From Asaia bogorensis (GTDB lineage Bacteria > Pseudomonadota > Alphaproteobacteria > Reyranellales > Reyranellaceae): DNA of 42,988 bases. The DNA lies in the NCBI GenBank assembly GCA_945905835.1, contig CAMDQJ010000018.1, positions 1 to 42,988 on the forward strand. The letters run 5' to 3'. The position numbers and the translations under genes were made by a program. This document shows, piece by piece, positions 29,263 through 35,903 of this stretch (positions are counted from its first letter, which is position 1; each line of letters begins with the position of its first letter). The notes beneath the pieces were generated by a model. It saw nothing but the letters and a program-made list of their open reading frames with translations, did not search any database and was not told the DNA's origin.

Positions 29263-30039
29263 CTAGACGCGCCAGCCGCTGTGCAGCGCCACGACGCCCA
29301 GGGTCATGTCACGCCACGCTACGTTGGCAAGTCCCGACTGGCGCATGCGATCCGCCAGTTCGGGCTGCGGCGGGAACCGCCGGATGCTCTCATGCAGGTA
29401 ACGATAGGACTCGGCGTCCTTGGCGATCAGCCGGCCGAAGAACGGCAGAGCGCGCTCTGAGTAGGCGTCGTAGAGCCTGGCGAGCGGCCGGCTGCTGACG
29501 CGGCTGAACTCCAGGCAGAGGAACCGCCCACCCGGCTTCAGGACGCGAAAGGCCTCGCGCAGCGCCTTGTCGATGTCGGTGACGTTGCGCAGGCCGAAGG
29601 CGATCGTGTAGCCGTCGAACGAACGGTCGGGAAACGGCAAGCTCTCGGCATCGCCGGTGGTCCAGGTGAGGCCCTGCAACAAGCCGCGATCGACGGCGCG
29701 GTCGCGACCGACGTCCAGCATGGCTGGGTTGATGTCGCAGACCGTGACGTCGGGGCGGTCACCTTGGCGCTTAAGGATGCGGAAGGCGATATCGCCCGTT
29801 CCGCCGGCGACATCGAGGAACCGTTCGCCCGGCCGCGGGTTAAGGACATCCACCGCGGTGTCCTTCCACAGACGATGCACGCCCCCCGACATAAGATCGT
29901 TCATCAGGTCGTAGCGCGGCGCCACGCTCGCGAAGACCTGGCGCACCATGCCGGCCTTCTCGACCGCGGGAACGTCGCGGTAGCCGAAGGAGACCTTTTC
30001 GCCTCCCCCGGGCGGGATAGTATCGGGAGCATCGCTCAT
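29263..30039 (-). CDS. ubiE: Ubiquinone/menaquinone methyltransferase UbiE
   Basis: A 258-residue SAM-dependent C-methyltransferase in ubiquinone synthesis. It has the UbiE signature APRYDLMNDLMSGGVHRLWK, SAM motif I LDVAGGTGDIAF, VCDINPAMLDVGRDRA, the GDAESLPFPDRSFDG block and AFGLRNVTDIDKALREAFRV. The C-terminal YRYLHESIRRFPPQPELADR is also diagnostic. ATG 30039 begins MSDAPDTIPPGG and the family text starts shortly after. It is divergent from the dehalogenase-like gene, only 24 bp away, so their promoters overlap. In many relatives mutM lies here instead. Confidence 0.95.
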   Translation of the reverse strand: MSDAPDTIPPGGGEKVSFGYRDVPAVEKAGMVRQVFASVAPRYDLMNDLMSGGVHRLWKDTAVDVLNPRPGERFLDVAGGTGDIAFRILKRQGDRPDVTVCDINPAMLDVGRDRAVDRGLLQGLTWTTGDAESLPFPDRSFDGYTIAFGLRNVTDIDKALREAFRVLKPGGRFLCLEFSRVSSRPLARLYDAYSERALPFFGRLIAKDAESYRYLHESIRRFPPQPELADRMRQSGLANVAWRDMTLGVVALHSGWRV

Positions 30040-30063
30040 GGGGCGCAACTTAGGGGAAACGCC

Positions 30064-30798
30064 ATGCCGCTGAAAGGCCGGGTGATGCTGATCACCAACG
30101 TCGAAAAGTTCGCAGGCCATGCGACAACAGCGGTGGCCTTGGCCCAGGGTGCGACCGTTCTGGCGCACGATCCGGCCTTCGAGGGCCCGACCGCGCGGCA
30201 TGCTTACGAGAACAAGTTCCCCGGCGCCCATGCGCTGTCGGTCGCCGATCCCGCGACGCTGGTCGAGCTGGCGTTGAAGCGCCACGGCCATATCGACGCG
30301 CTGGTCAACAACGACGCTTACCCGGAACTGCGCGCGCCGCTCGGCGAAACCCGCATGGAAGACTACCGTGCAGCGCTGGAAGCCATGGCGGTGGCGCCGC
30401 TGCGCCTCACCCAGTTCGTGGCGCCCGCCATGCGCAAGCGCAAGCACGGCCGCATCGTGTTCGTCTCCTCGGCCGCACCGCTGCGCGGCATCGCCAACTA
30501 CGCGCCCTATGTCTCGGCGCGGGCGGCGGCCAACGGGCTGGTGTCGTCGCTAGCCAAGGAGCTGGGCCGCGACGGCATCACGGTAAACGCCGTCGGCTCG
30601 AACTATGTCGAGAACCCCGACTACTTCCCGCCGGCGCTGCTCGCCAACAAGGAAGCGATGGCCAAGATGACGGCACAGATACCGCTCGGCCGGCTGGGCA
30701 AGCCGGAGGAGCTGGGCGCGGCGGTGTGTTTCCTGTGCTCGGACGGCGCCGGCTTCATCACCGGCCATGTGCTGCCGCATGCAGGCGGCTGGGCGTGA
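30064..30798 (+). CDS. Putative halohydrin (haloalcohol) dehalogenase, SDR-derived
   Basis: A 244-residue protein of SDR shape that lacks the Rossmann TGxxxGxG motif. Instead, residues 11-18 read TNVEKFAG, which fits T-X4-(F/Y)-X-G, the halide-pocket signature of halohydrin dehalogenases. The catalytic set Ser136, Tyr149, Arg153 has exactly the S-X12-Y-X3-R spacing of these enzymes, with Arg replacing the SDR Lys. From memory it is also close to HheC in stretches (TNV..F.G, HD..F, ND, EDYR.A.EA, KRK.G.I.F.SSA.P, SARA, NY). Such enzymes convert halohydrins to epoxides and halide without NAD(P). AGGGGAA precedes ATG 30064. No partner gene for halogenated compounds lies nearby. A related non-catalytic SDR remains possible. 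Confidence 0.8.
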   Translation: MPLKGRVMLITNVEKFAGHATTAVALAQGATVLAHDPAFEGPTARHAYENKFPGAHALSVADPATLVELALKRHGHIDALVNNDAYPELRAPLGETRMEDYRAALEAMAVAPLRLTQFVAPAMRKRKHGRIVFVSSAAPLRGIANYAPYVSARAAANGLVSSLAKELGRDGITVNAVGSNYVENPDYFPPALLANKEAMAKMTAQIPLGRLGKPEELGAAVCFLCSDGAGFITGHVLPHAGGWA

Positions 30799-31880: not shown

Positions 31881-32761
31881 GCGTCGAGGTCCTCGAGCCC
31901 ATCGCCGGTGACGCCGAAGCAGGCCCGCTCGGCCGCGCCGGCGTGCTGCGCCGCCTCACCCGCGACAAGGTGGCGGCAACGGCGGCGGTGACGCTCACGC
32001 TCATCGTTCTGGCGGCGATCTTCGCGCCGCTGATCGCGCCCCACGACCCCTATCTCACCGACCTCACCAAAGTGATGCAGCCGCCCAACGAGGTTAACCT
32101 GCTCGGCACTGACAATACCGGCCGCGACATCCTGAGCCGCGTGATCTACGGCACGCGCAACACCCTGATGCTAGGCCTCGTCGGCGTCATCATCGGCGGC
32201 GCCTTCGGCGGCGTGCTCGGCATCCTGGCGGCATTCTATCCCAGACTCGACGGCTGGATCATGCGGCTGGTCGACGTGATGCTGGCCTTCCCGGCCATCC
32301 TGATCGGCCTCGCAGTAGCGGCGATCTTCGGCGCCGGACTCACGGCCGTGGTGATCGCGCTTGTGGTGGCGACAATCCCGGACGTGGCGCGCGTGGCGCG
32401 CGGCGCGGCGGTGGGCGTGATGGGCCAGGAGTTCATGGAAGCCGGTCGCGCCGTCGGCGTCTCCGACTCGACGCTGATCTGGCGCTACCTCACGCTCAAC
32501 TGCATCTCGACCATCTTCGTCTTCCTCACCCTGCGCTTCGGCCAGATCATCCTCATCGGCTCGGCACTGGGCTTTCTCGGCATGGGCGCGCAGCCGCCGA
32601 CCGCCGAGCTCGGCATGATGGCGGCCCAGGGTCGCGACTTCCTTTTCATGGCGCCGCATATCGCGACGATTCCTAGTCTCGCGATCTTCGTGATCGTGCT
32701 GGCCGCCAACCTTCTGGGCGACGCGATGCGCGACGTCCTCGACCCGAGGCTGCAACAATGA
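31877..32761 (+). CDS. Peptide-type ABC transporter permease, DppC-like
   Basis: A 294-residue permease partner. The N-terminal cytoplasmic tail leads to VAATAAVTLTLIVLAAIFAP, then HDPYLTDLTKVMQPPNEVNL LGTDNTGRDILSRVIYGTRN (two parts), a DppC/OppC hallmark, and a six-span core with GQEFMEAGRAVGVSDSTLIW as the ATPase coupling helix. The start ATG overlaps the permease upstream (ATGA), and the stop overlaps the start of the first binding protein (ATGA). This coupling indicates a single polycistronic unit. Confidence 0.9.
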   Translation: MSVEVLEPIAGDAEAGPLGRAGVLRRLTRDKVAATAAVTLTLIVLAAIFAPLIAPHDPYLTDLTKVMQPPNEVNLLGTDNTGRDILSRVIYGTRNTLMLGLVGVIIGGAFGGVLGILAAFYPRLDGWIMRLVDVMLAFPAILIGLAVAAIFGAGLTAVVIALVVATIPDVARVARGAAVGVMGQEFMEAGRAVGVSDSTLIWRYLTLNCISTIFVFLTLRFGQIILIGSALGFLGMGAQPPTAELGMMAAQGRDFLFMAPHIATIPSLAIFVIVLAANLLGDAMRDVLDPRLQQ

Positions 32762-34320
32762 CCAGATCCCTGTTCTATGCCGCGTTCGCGTTGTTTTTCG
32801 CAGTACCAGCCGGTGCGCAGACGCTGAAGATGATGAAGGGCATCGACGCGCCGCATTACGACGCGCAGCGCACGACCTGGGGCCCGACCTCCGACATCGT
32901 CAACATGTTCCAGGACACGCTGGTGGCGCTCGACTGGGACGGCAGGACGCCGATCCCCTATCTCGCCAAGTCGTGGACAGTGAGCGCCGACGGCAAGACC
33001 TACACCTTCAAGCTGCGCGACGACGTGTCGTTCTGCAGCGGCAAGAAGTTCACCGCCGACGATGTGGTCTTCAGCTTCAAGCGCCTGAAGAGTCCCGAGG
33101 TCAAGGGCCCCTATGCCTGGCGCGCCGGCACCATCAAGGAACTGCGCGCGGTCGATCCGTATACCGTCGAGTACGAGCTCACCGAGCCTTATTCGGAGCT
33201 TCTCCTGCAGCTCACCATGTTCACCAACGTCATCCATAACAAGGAGAGCGTCGAGGCGCTGGGCAAGGACTACGGCATCAAGGGCGCCGACGGCACCGGC
33301 CCATGGTGCTTCGAGTCGTGGCAGCCGCGCACACAGATCGTGCTCAAGCGCCACGACGCTTACAAATGGGGGCCCTCGATGTACAAGAATCCGGGCCCGG
33401 TGAAGTTCGAGAAGCTCGTCATCAAGATCGTGCCCGAGGATTCGAGCCGCGTGGCGGCGATGATGGCGGGACAGTTCGACGTCACCCACCAGTTTCCCTC
33501 GCAGTTCATCGCCCAGGCCAAGACCGCGCCGATGCTGACGGTGAACCCGGCGCAACCCAACTTCCAGCTGCTCTATTTCGGCTTCAAGACGACGCGGCCG
33601 ATGGTGGCCGACAAGCGCGTGCGCGAAGCCATGAGCATCGCCATCGATCGCGCGGCCATCGGCAAGGCAATATTGCTGGGCAACGCCGATCCCGCCTTCA
33701 CCATCGTCGATCCGGCGGCTCTCGACCACGACCCCAAGACCGTGGGGCTCGTCAAGGAAGACGCCGAACAGGCGAAGAAGCTGCTCGACGAGGCCGGCTG
33801 GAAGGTGGGCTCCGACGGCATCCGCGAGAAGGACGGCGTCAAGCTCGCCCCCCGGGTCTACTACACGGCGAACGCCAATTCGGCCCGCGTCGCCGAGGCG
33901 ATCCAGGGCTACCTGCGCAAGATCGGCGTGCACTGGCAGCTCCAGCCATGGGACTCGACCATCGCCTCGGTCAAGATGGCCGAGCAGGACTACGAGATCT
34001 GGTCGGTCACCGTGCCCTACCTGTCGGCCGGCGACCTGATGAACATCTACTTCGACTCGGCCAACATCCCGACGCCCAACCGCATGAACTGGAAGGACGC
34101 CGAGACCGACGAATGGCTGAAGCAGGGCCGCGCCGCCCTTACGTCCGAGGACCGCGCCAAGAACTATGCCCTGGTGCAGCAGAAGGCGATGCGCGAGCAC
34201 CTGTGGATGCCGGTGCTCAACATCAACATGGACCAGGTCACCAGCAAGAATCTGAAGGGCATGCGCCCGCACATGATTTACCAGAACACCTTCTACAAAG
34301 GCCTCGACGCGTCATTCTGA
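32758..34320 (+). CDS. ABC transporter substrate-binding protein, family 5 (first copy)
   Basis: A 520-residue exported solute-binding protein of the DppA/OppA class. The signal peptide is MTRSLFYAAFALFFAVPAGA, cleaved before QTLK. The family text includes YLAKSWTVSADGKTYTFKLR and [20 protein letters not shown], then [20 protein letters not shown] and the C-terminal [11 protein letters not shown]. It binds the solute in the periplasm and delivers it to the permease pair. Class members bind peptides, but also opines, glutathione or other compounds, so the ligand is unknown. A near-collinear second copy follows 14 bp later. Confidence 0.92.
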   Translation: MTRSLFYAAFALFFAVPAGAQTLKMMKGIDAPHYDAQRTTWGPTSDIVNMFQDTLVALDWDGRTPIPYLAKSWTVSADGKTYTFKLRDDVSFCSGKKFTADDVVFSFKRLKSPEVKGPYAWRAGTIKELRAVDPYTVEYELTEPYSELLLQLTMFTNVIHNKESVEALGKDYGIKGADGTGPWCFESWQPRTQIVLKRHDAYKWGPSMYKNPGPVKFEKLVIKIVPEDSSRVAAMMAGQFDVTHQFPSQFIAQAKTAPMLTVNPAQPNFQLLYFGFKTTRPMVADKRVREAMSIAIDRAAIGKAILLGNADPAFTIVDPAALDHDPKTVGLVKEDAEQAKKLLDEAGWKVGSDGIREKDGVKLAPRVYYTANANSARVAEAIQGYLRKIGVHWQLQPWDSTIASVKMAEQDYEIWSVTVPYLSAGDLMNIYFDSANIPTPNRMNWKDAETDEWLKQGRAALTSEDRAKNYALVQQKAMREHLWMPVLNINMDQVTSKNLKGMRPHMIYQNTFYKGLDASF

Positions 34321-34334
34321 TAGGGAGAACGACC

Positions 34335-35903
34335 ATGCTTAGAGTACTGGCTAGAACAGTTGTGTTTGGCGCGATGGCGTTGGCGTCGGCTGCGGAAGCA
34401 CAGACGCTGCGCATGATGAAGGCGCTCGACGCGCCGCACTATGACGGCTCGCGCACGACCTGGTCGCCGACCTCCGATATCGTCAACATGTTCCAGGATA
34501 CGCTGGTGGCGATGGACTGGGACGGCAAGACGCCGATCCCCTACCTCGCCAAGTCGTGGACGATGACTCCGGACGGCAAGCTCTACACCTTCAAGCTGCG
34601 CGAGGACGTGTCGTTCTGCAGCGGCAAGAAATTCACCGCCGCCGACGTGGTCTACACCTTCAAGCGGCTGACCAGCGCCGAGCTCAAGGCGCCGCTCGCC
34701 TGGCGCGCCGGCAACCTCAAGGACATCCGCGCCACCGATCCCTACACCATCGAGTACGAGCTGAACGAGCCGTTCTCCGACCTGCTGCTCAACCTCACCA
34801 TGTTCACCACGGCGATCCACAACAAGGAGAGCGTCGAATCGCTCGGCAAGGACTACGGCGTCAAGACGATCGACGGCACCGGTCCGTGGTGCTTCGAGAG
34901 CTGGCAGCCGCGCACCGAGATCGTTCTGAAACGTCACGACGCCTACAAGTGGGGGCCGTCGATGTACCAGAACAAGGGCCCGGTGAAGTTCGAGAAGCTC
35001 TCGATCAAGATCATCCCCGAGGATGCGAGCCGCGTCGCCGCCATGCTGGGCAGCCAGTTCGACGTCACCCACCAGATCCCGCTGGCCTTCATCCAGCAGG
35101 TCAAGTCGGCGCCCAACCTTAACGTCCAGGAGGCGACGCCCAACTTCCAGCTCATGTACTACGGCTACAAGACGACGCGGCCGATGGTGGCCGACAAGCG
35201 TGTGCGCGAGGCGATGAACATCGCCATCAACCGCGCCGAGATCGTCAAGGGCATCATGCTGGGCAATGCCGATCCCGCCTACACCTACATCGATGCCAAG
35301 GCGCTCGACTTCGCCGACTCGACCAAGGGCATCATCAAGGAGGACGCCGAGCGGGCGAAGAAGCTGCTCGACGAGGCCGGCTGGAAGGTCGGCTCCGACG
35401 GCATCCGCGAGAAGGACGGCGTCAAGCTGGCACCACGCGTGCTGTTCACACAGGTCGCCTACTTCCCGCGCGTCTCCGAGGCGATCCAGGGCTACATGCG
35501 CAAGATCGGCATTGACTGGAAGATCACCGGCTACGACAGCACCATCGCCCCGGCCGAGATGGCCAAGCAGGACTACGATTTGTGGACGGTGACGTTCCCC
35601 TACATGTCGGCCGGCGACCTGCTCAACTTCTACTTCGACTCCAAGAACATGCCGACACCCAACCGCATGAACTGGAACGACCCCAAGACCGACGAGTACC
35701 TCAAGATGGGCAAGGCGTCGCTGACCAACGCCGACCGCACTAAGTACTATGCGCTGGCCCAGCAGCGCGTCACCGAGGAGCATCTCTGGATGCCGGTGAT
35801 GAACATCGCGATGTACACCACCAGCCTCAAGAAGCTGAAGGGTGTACGGCCGCACATGCTCTATCAGAACACCTTCTACAAGGGACTGGACTACTCCTTC
35901 TGA
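34335..35903 (+). CDS. ABC transporter substrate-binding protein, family 5 (second copy)
   Basis: A 522-residue paralogue of the preceding gene. The signal peptide is [20 protein letters not shown], cleaved near AEA-QTLR. It matches the first copy without large gaps, including [35 protein letters not shown] and [20 protein letters not shown]. Differences concentrate in the signal, the mid-domain and the region after [15 protein letters not shown]. Two binding proteins in one operon with one permease pair and two ATPases suggest either two ligands or a duplicated dosage. TAGGGAGAA precedes ATG 34335. Its TGA overlaps the ATPase start (TGATG). Confidence 0.92.

Follow-up and report, generated by a model that had tools for sequence, protein, structure and literature searches.

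A vertically kept gene for a putative halohydrin dehalogenase beside ubiE in Reyranella

The window that we analyzed is a stretch of 42,988 nucleotides, and the gene of interest within it encodes a protein (P0001) that carries the motifs of the halohydrin dehalogenases (HHDHs) within a sequence otherwise resembling a short-chain dehydrogenase (SDR). The features at this locus are the following:

29263 to 30039, minus strand: ubiE, divergent to the HHDH-type gene (Pfam PF01209, E 3e-84)
30052 to 30057, plus strand: ribosome-binding-like AGGGGA preceding the ATG of the HHDH-type gene
30064 to 30798, plus strand: HHDH-type gene, 244 aa, a single open frame from ATG to TGA
30094 to 30117, plus strand: motif 1, T11-X4-F16-X-G18 (TNVEKFAG), the predicted nucleophile pocket that replaces the SDR glycine motif (pattern scan; aligned to HheC T7, F12 and G14)
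30313 to 30315, plus strand: D84, which pairs in the alignment with D80 in both HheC and HheA2
30469 to 30522, plus strand: motif 2, S136-X12-Y149-X3-R153, the predicted catalytic triad (pattern scan; aligned to HheC S132, Y145 and R149)
30598 to 30609, plus strand: S179-N180-Y181-V182, aligned to HheC P175-N176-Y177-L178

On the strand opposite the HHDH-type gene, the corresponding frame is interrupted by a stop. The start codons of the gene and of ubiE, as called in the window, are only 24 bp apart, so at least one promoter of the pair probably lies inside a coding region. The leader upstream of the HHDH-type gene (30040-30063) is strongly conserved in the related loci L001-L051, where its consensus is gCAACcTAGAGGAAtcGCCATG. 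In two loci with a longer gap between ubiE and the HHDH gene (L028 and L042), an inverted repeat can be seen by eye upstream of the HHDH gene. On one side of the window gene lie ubiE, ubiB, coaBC, and dut, and on the other side lie a dipeptide-type ABC transporter and ribonucleotide reductase genes. Within a single operon for a transporter of this type, two tandem genes for family-5 solute-binding proteins occupy positions 32758-35903.

The initial annotation had proposed an HHDH because of a T-X4-(F/Y)-X-G sequence and an S-X12-Y-X3-R spacing, and our pattern scan finds each of these exactly once in the protein, at residues 11-18 and 136-153, respectively. Both fingerprints are defined in PMC4989007 (section 5) and in PMC11976700, which also mentions variants at the Thr position of motif 1. 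The scan finds no G-X3-G-X-G in the protein, which thus lacks the glycine-rich T-G-X3-G-X-G of SDRs, and it lacks their catalytic Ser-Tyr-Lys as well, with Arg153 in place of the Lys. As controls we fetched nine SDRs from the same genome. The SDR glycine motif is found by regular expression in eight of them and S-X10-14-Y-X3-K in seven, and the column aligned with Arg153 holds Lys in eight, the exception (L180) having Arg but neither the Ser nor the Tyr. Neither HHDH motif occurs in any of the nine, and we conclude that the motif match in P0001 is not due to chance. Both motifs are also present in all 52 of the closely related loci L001-L052.

For a comparison of residues, we aligned the protein with HheC, HheA2, and ten SDR rows, and HheB and 7B73 were read as well. 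Four columns part P0001 from the SDR rows, namely F16 (where SDRs usually have Gly), D84 (Ala in 10/10 SDR rows), R153 (Lys in 9/10), and N180 (Gly in 9/10 and Ser in one), and at these four positions jointly the protein departs from the SDR letters and agrees with HheC and HheA2. D84 and N180 are common to P0001, HheC, and HheA2 but not to HheB; at the D84 column HheB has Phe and 7B73 has Leu. HheC (1PWX) and HheA2 (1ZMO) are 36-37% identical to P0001 and share with it the triad and motif 1 along with the equivalents of D84 and N180. FabG-type SDRs have the same fold, superfamily, and active-site Ser and Tyr as P0001, whereas their glycine motif, their Ala and Gly at the D84 and N180 columns, and their catalytic Lys are all replaced in it. 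T11, G18, S136, and Y149 were dropped as discriminators between HHDHs and SDRs because SDRs mostly have the same letters there. An invariant NYVENPDY stretch (alignment A1) was likewise set aside as evidence, as it is one of the search peptides that retrieved those loci. In the alignment, the putative halide-pocket residues of motif 1 and N180-Y181 agree with HheC, and S179 and V182 differ; the equivalent HheC residues 175-178 form part of the halide site. On the substrate side, several residues are unlike those of HheC: HheC P84, F86, W139, P175, and L178 correspond to E88, R90, I143, S179, and V182 of P0001.

We next consider where databases, structure, and phylogeny place the protein. As the initial annotation had anticipated of automatic labelling, general family models return an SDR: Pfam gives adh_short_C2 (E 5e-39), and the NCBIfam matches are generic SDR models, none of them reaching its cut-off among the best 25 of 196. 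The type of enzyme thus goes unnamed by the general family models that score best. The AlphaFold2 model has a mean pLDDT of 85.7, falling below 50 in the loop at 184-187, and a fold search with this model puts 6A41 first, followed by FabG, HheA, and HheC at similar scores. Since these three score alike, the predicted fold by itself would say only that the protein has an SDR fold, and we rejected fold comparison as an HHDH discriminator. A sequence search of the PDB also gives 6A41 as the best match (E 8e-139), next to which come forms of HheC and HheA (3e-43 to 3e-38), and the top true SDR is at 7e-30.

The initial annotation had named a tree with SDRs as a check, and we built a maximum-likelihood tree of 60 rows, 50 of them HHDH-type (including HheA2, HheB, HheC, 7B73, and 8XXB, with HheG left out) and 10 of them SDRs, three of which are on long branches. 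The HHDH-type rows, P0001 among them, are split from the SDRs with support of 100/100, and the split is seen in 100% of 200 bootstrap trees. 7B73 and 8XXB were deposited as SDRs, yet they carry HHDH motifs and fall on the HHDH side. The group of P0001 is separate from that of HheB and 7B73 (100/100), and the branches that link the Reyranella, HheA3-like, HheA2-like, and HheC rows mostly have weak support. An ordinary NAD(P)-dependent SDR whose glycine motif has drifted would be in keeping with the Pfam and NCBIfam matches and with a predicted fold that fits FabG about as well as HheA, but it is very improbable given that four discriminating positions have changed jointly, that the tree sets the protein apart from the SDRs, and that no NCBIfam model reaches its cut-off among the best 25 of 196. 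The motifs, the two further columns shared with HheC and HheA2, and the tree together back the identity first proposed, and we judge from sequence, with a probability of roughly 0.83, that P0001 is a cofactor-free halohydrin dehalogenase of an A/C-like group.

The enzyme had also been described as new, and this does not hold, as a solved structure is 85% identical to it and the order carries the gene throughout. The structure, 6A41 (entitled 'Dehalogenation enzyme' in the PDB and released on 2019-06-19), is identical to P0001 at 208 of 244 residues (85.2%), has equal length, and carries the same motifs. In the tree it is sister to the protein of Reyranella sp. L025 (100/86), to which it is identical at 238 of 244 positions, and we infer that its source is a Reyranella-like species other than that of the window. 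A literature search gave no paper on 6A41 among the matches listed, where '6A41' occurred only in a wheat paper; the matches listed likewise held no paper on the P0001 protein and, for Reyranella together with dehalogenase, none titled on HHDHs. The type of molecule is thus already known from 6A41, and the core status of the gene in Reyranella, with its probable housekeeping role, is the interesting part.

To describe this status, we counted matches at E 1e-45 across the order: of 76 genomes, that of the window among them, 67 have one. Judged by its nearest named relatives, the window itself is from Reyranella. The match is partial in three of the 67 (G004, G030, and G055) and another (G063) has a second, partial match; wherever the gene is complete, there is one full copy per genome. 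Among the nine genomes with no match, a contig end falls inside the gene in two (G028 and G040, where the first codons are readable) and inside ubiE in a third (G060), five (G032, G033, G056, G057, and G064) are also without a ubiE match at E 1e-50, and the last (G074) is from a genus where the gene sits elsewhere. Most of the nine missing cases are assembly gaps.

The HHDH gene is divergent to ubiE in 52/52 of the loci L001-L052, which are 77-90% identical to the window gene, and the gap between the aligned parts of the two genes is 22 to 213 bases and lies within 100 in 49 of them. At 62-70% identity, ubiE was not found beside the HHDH gene in any of eight loci (L053-L059 and L061), one of which, L059, is labelled Reyranella sp. 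but sits at the match position of G073, whose code is that of a different genus. The suggestion that relatives have mutM next to ubiE is borne out by all three mutM loci that we took from other orders, where the two genes are side by side, and in another genus of the family (L135) mutM is ~1.2 kb from ubiE. In Reyranella, ubiE is absent from the short flanks of mutM in 7/7 loci, and in the window's genome mutM is elsewhere, on contig C9. With mutM adjoining ubiE in relatives and the HHDH gene adjoining it in Reyranella, the HHDH gene occupies the place of mutM.

We then asked how strongly the gene is constrained, using 42 loci in which HHDH, UbiE, and UbiB are all covered to at least 90%. Compared with the window's proteins, HHDH averages 87.2% identity, UbiB 83.6%, and UbiE 80.3%, and HHDH exceeds UbiE in 42/42 loci and UbiB in 40/42. 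The median pairwise dN/dS (Nei-Gojobori, five genes, 378 to 600 pairs per gene) is 0.080 for HHDH, 0.104 for DppB, 0.158 for DppC, 0.164 for UbiB, and 0.185 for UbiE. The amino acids of DppB are more conserved than those of HHDH (mean pairwise identity 0.927 vs 0.906), so HHDH is not unique in its constraint. The Reyranella gene has been kept vertically under strong purifying selection, and we take the low dN/dS and the pattern of identities to mean that it is in constant use. A non-catalytic relic or structural protein finds a parallel in degenerate HHDH-like copies elsewhere in the class (the tandem pairs of family f92), but with the low dN/dS and with both motifs intact in 52/52 loci we give this explanation very little credence.

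Enrichment cultures on man-made haloalcohols were the source of the earliest known enzymes of types HheA to HheC (PMC4989007, section 5), which would suit a recently acquired catabolic gene for such compounds, as would the existence of one plasmid with a module of this kind. That plasmid is the sole one among 72,556 plasmid records with a match at E 1e-30, and its gene, an annotated haloalcohol dehalogenase of Microbacterium sp. J1-1, is 35% identical to P0001, so we rejected the idea of plasmid copies of the Reyranella lineage. The Microbacterium gene lies directly behind an epoxide hydrolase gene and before glpK, with a transposase gene nearby, whereas P0001 is encoded divergently from ubiE. 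By its neighbors, the P0001 gene is chromosomal. HheC and HheA2 are enzymes of enrichment isolates (PMC4989007). HheC further differs in a C-terminal extension that reaches the neighboring active site (PMC4989007, section 4), for which P0001 is too short. A recent catabolic acquisition is also at odds with the order-wide presence in one full copy where complete, with the fixed place beside ubiE, and with the stepwise branching of Reyranella, L052, L054 with L057, L056, and L061, which fits the kinship of the genomes as given by their codes rather than by a species tree. The evidence argues against a recent xenobiotic gene, which we hold to be highly unlikely, and for a steady function; and since its neighbor is nearly constant in the Reyranella genomes examined, the enzyme probably has a routine job there.

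What this job might be can be approached from HheC, for which Ser-Tyr-Arg and the halide pocket have been described (PMC4989007, section 4). By homology with HheC, Ser136 would hold the hydroxyl of the substrate and Tyr149, activated by Arg153, would accept its proton, whereupon the substrate oxygen would attack the adjacent carbon and the halide would depart into a pocket formed partly by motif 1, at the site where SDRs bind NAD(P). By the same analogy the reaction would be reversible, and other small anions could open the epoxide. The best reading of the sequence is that the Reyranella gene encodes a vertically kept haloalcohol-to-epoxide enzyme, probably in steady use on a haloalcohol or epoxide that Reyranella often meets.

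A different possibility is that the HHDH fold and active site are retained for a natural reaction that involves no halogen, such as one that opens or closes an endogenous epoxide with a different anion, and that dehalogenation is a side activity. Order-wide presence and strong constraint would agree with this, as would the place beside ubiE, the lack of linked degradation genes among those scanned, and the substrate-side positions unlike HheC; the group is also not known to grow on organohalides. PMC11536340 terms the natural function of HHDHs assumed and PMC11976700 holds that its test compounds are probably not the natural substrates of HheC, both of which would favor a halogen-free reaction. 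PMC6434027 gives haloalcohol dehalogenation as the natural function. Against a halogen-free reaction, P0001 agrees with HheC in motif 1, in the triad, and at N180-Y181, and the genome holds an epoxide hydrolase homologue, as in the degradative module of the plasmid. We regard a halogen-free reaction as a real but rather unlikely alternative to the haloalcohol-to-epoxide reading.

The initial annotation had noted that no dehalogenation partner lies nearby. This stands for the window, where a scan of 30 ORFs, of which several lack any Pfam match, turned up no linked dehalogenation, epoxide, or degradation gene; it is incomplete for the genome, which has an unlinked homologue of the epoxide hydrolase from the Microbacterium plasmid module (in the order epoxide hydrolase, haloalcohol dehalogenase, glpK):

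G000, contig C171, 3096 to 4289: EHN-type epoxide hydrolase homologue (L198; Pfam EHN; 46% identical to the module enzyme), on a contig other than that of the HHDH gene

Such a homologue is present in 6/6 genomes tested, including the window's own. Across the 386 class genomes, with a threshold of E 1e-60, 27 of the 40 that are HHDH-positive have it vs 64 of the 346 that are HHDH-negative, an odds ratio of 9.2 that is uncorrected for kinship or, directly, for genome size, compared with 24/40 vs 116/346 (odds ratio 3.0) for a control gene, the glucose/sorbosone dehydrogenase of the window at E 1e-50; stratified by the control gene, the HHDH-hydrolase odds ratio is 8.9. The hydrolase is below threshold in 13 of the 40 HHDH-positive genomes, among them all four of family f41 and all three of f33. 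As kinship and genome size are outside the model, the co-occurrence is a suggestive sign of a partner, and by it the unlinked EHN-type epoxide hydrolase would be the likeliest next step after the haloalcohol-to-epoxide reaction. Common neighbors were rejected as a clue to the substrate, as over 21 locus groups only HHDH itself recurs in more than three. Outside the genus, a scan of ten neighboring ORFs gave either no family or unrelated ones, among them phosphofructokinase, alanine racemase-like, AMP ligase, sulfotransferase, Sir2, and SDR.

Beyond the order, a class-wide draw gives a match at E 1e-45 in 40 of 386 genomes and 23 of 275 genera. By family, the counts are 7/8 in f39, 18/20 in f41, and 23/32 in f11, from which it follows that HHDH can be near-universal within families. 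Family f11 includes Parvibaculum lavamentivorans DS-1 (G483), whose single match at E 1e-45 is an HHDH-type protein (L184) with both motifs and 109 of 241 residues identical to P0001 (45.2%); as the characterised HheA3 comes from this strain (PMC4989007), L184 is probably HheA3. In the tree, HheA2 is grouped with family f33 at 100/98 and HheC is nested among alphaproteobacterial genes with support of only 92/75, each on a long branch. From this nesting, the counts in f41 and f39, the 67/76 genomes of the order, and a constraint above that of ubiE, we tentatively suggest, at somewhat less than even odds, that the A/C-like HHDHs began as vertically inherited housekeeping enzymes with a natural haloalcohol or epoxide substrate and are still so in several alphaproteobacterial lineages, the industrially used enzymes from plasmids and enrichment cultures being captured copies. 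HHDHs serve as catalysts in industry, and PMC11536340 describes their natural role as assumed; a core gene with a fixed place and constraint above ubiE makes Reyranella a clean system for finding that role.

The relatives also vary in motif 1. In Vineibacter and its kin (L056, L058, and L059) Ser replaces the Thr, and in three of four fetched f39 loci (L160, L162, and L163) and in L063 the motif is T-X4-W-X-G, outside the published F/Y fingerprint, so a search by the strict motifs overlooks such relatives. Among the 37 HHDH-like rows of L138-L172, motif 2 is present in 35 and strict motif 1 in 30 (29 by script, plus L141, whose motif lies behind a mis-set start); the remaining seven have Ser (one), Asn (one), or Trp (three) in motif 1 or are two degenerate f92 copies. 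In family f92, L155 and L156 (genomes G267 and G165) each hold a tandem HHDH-like pair, in which one gene has an intact Ser-Tyr-Arg triad and its partner has S-X12-Y-X3-Q and a motif 1 with no aromatic residue, and such a pair could be a heteromer or an enzyme with a pseudoenzyme partner.
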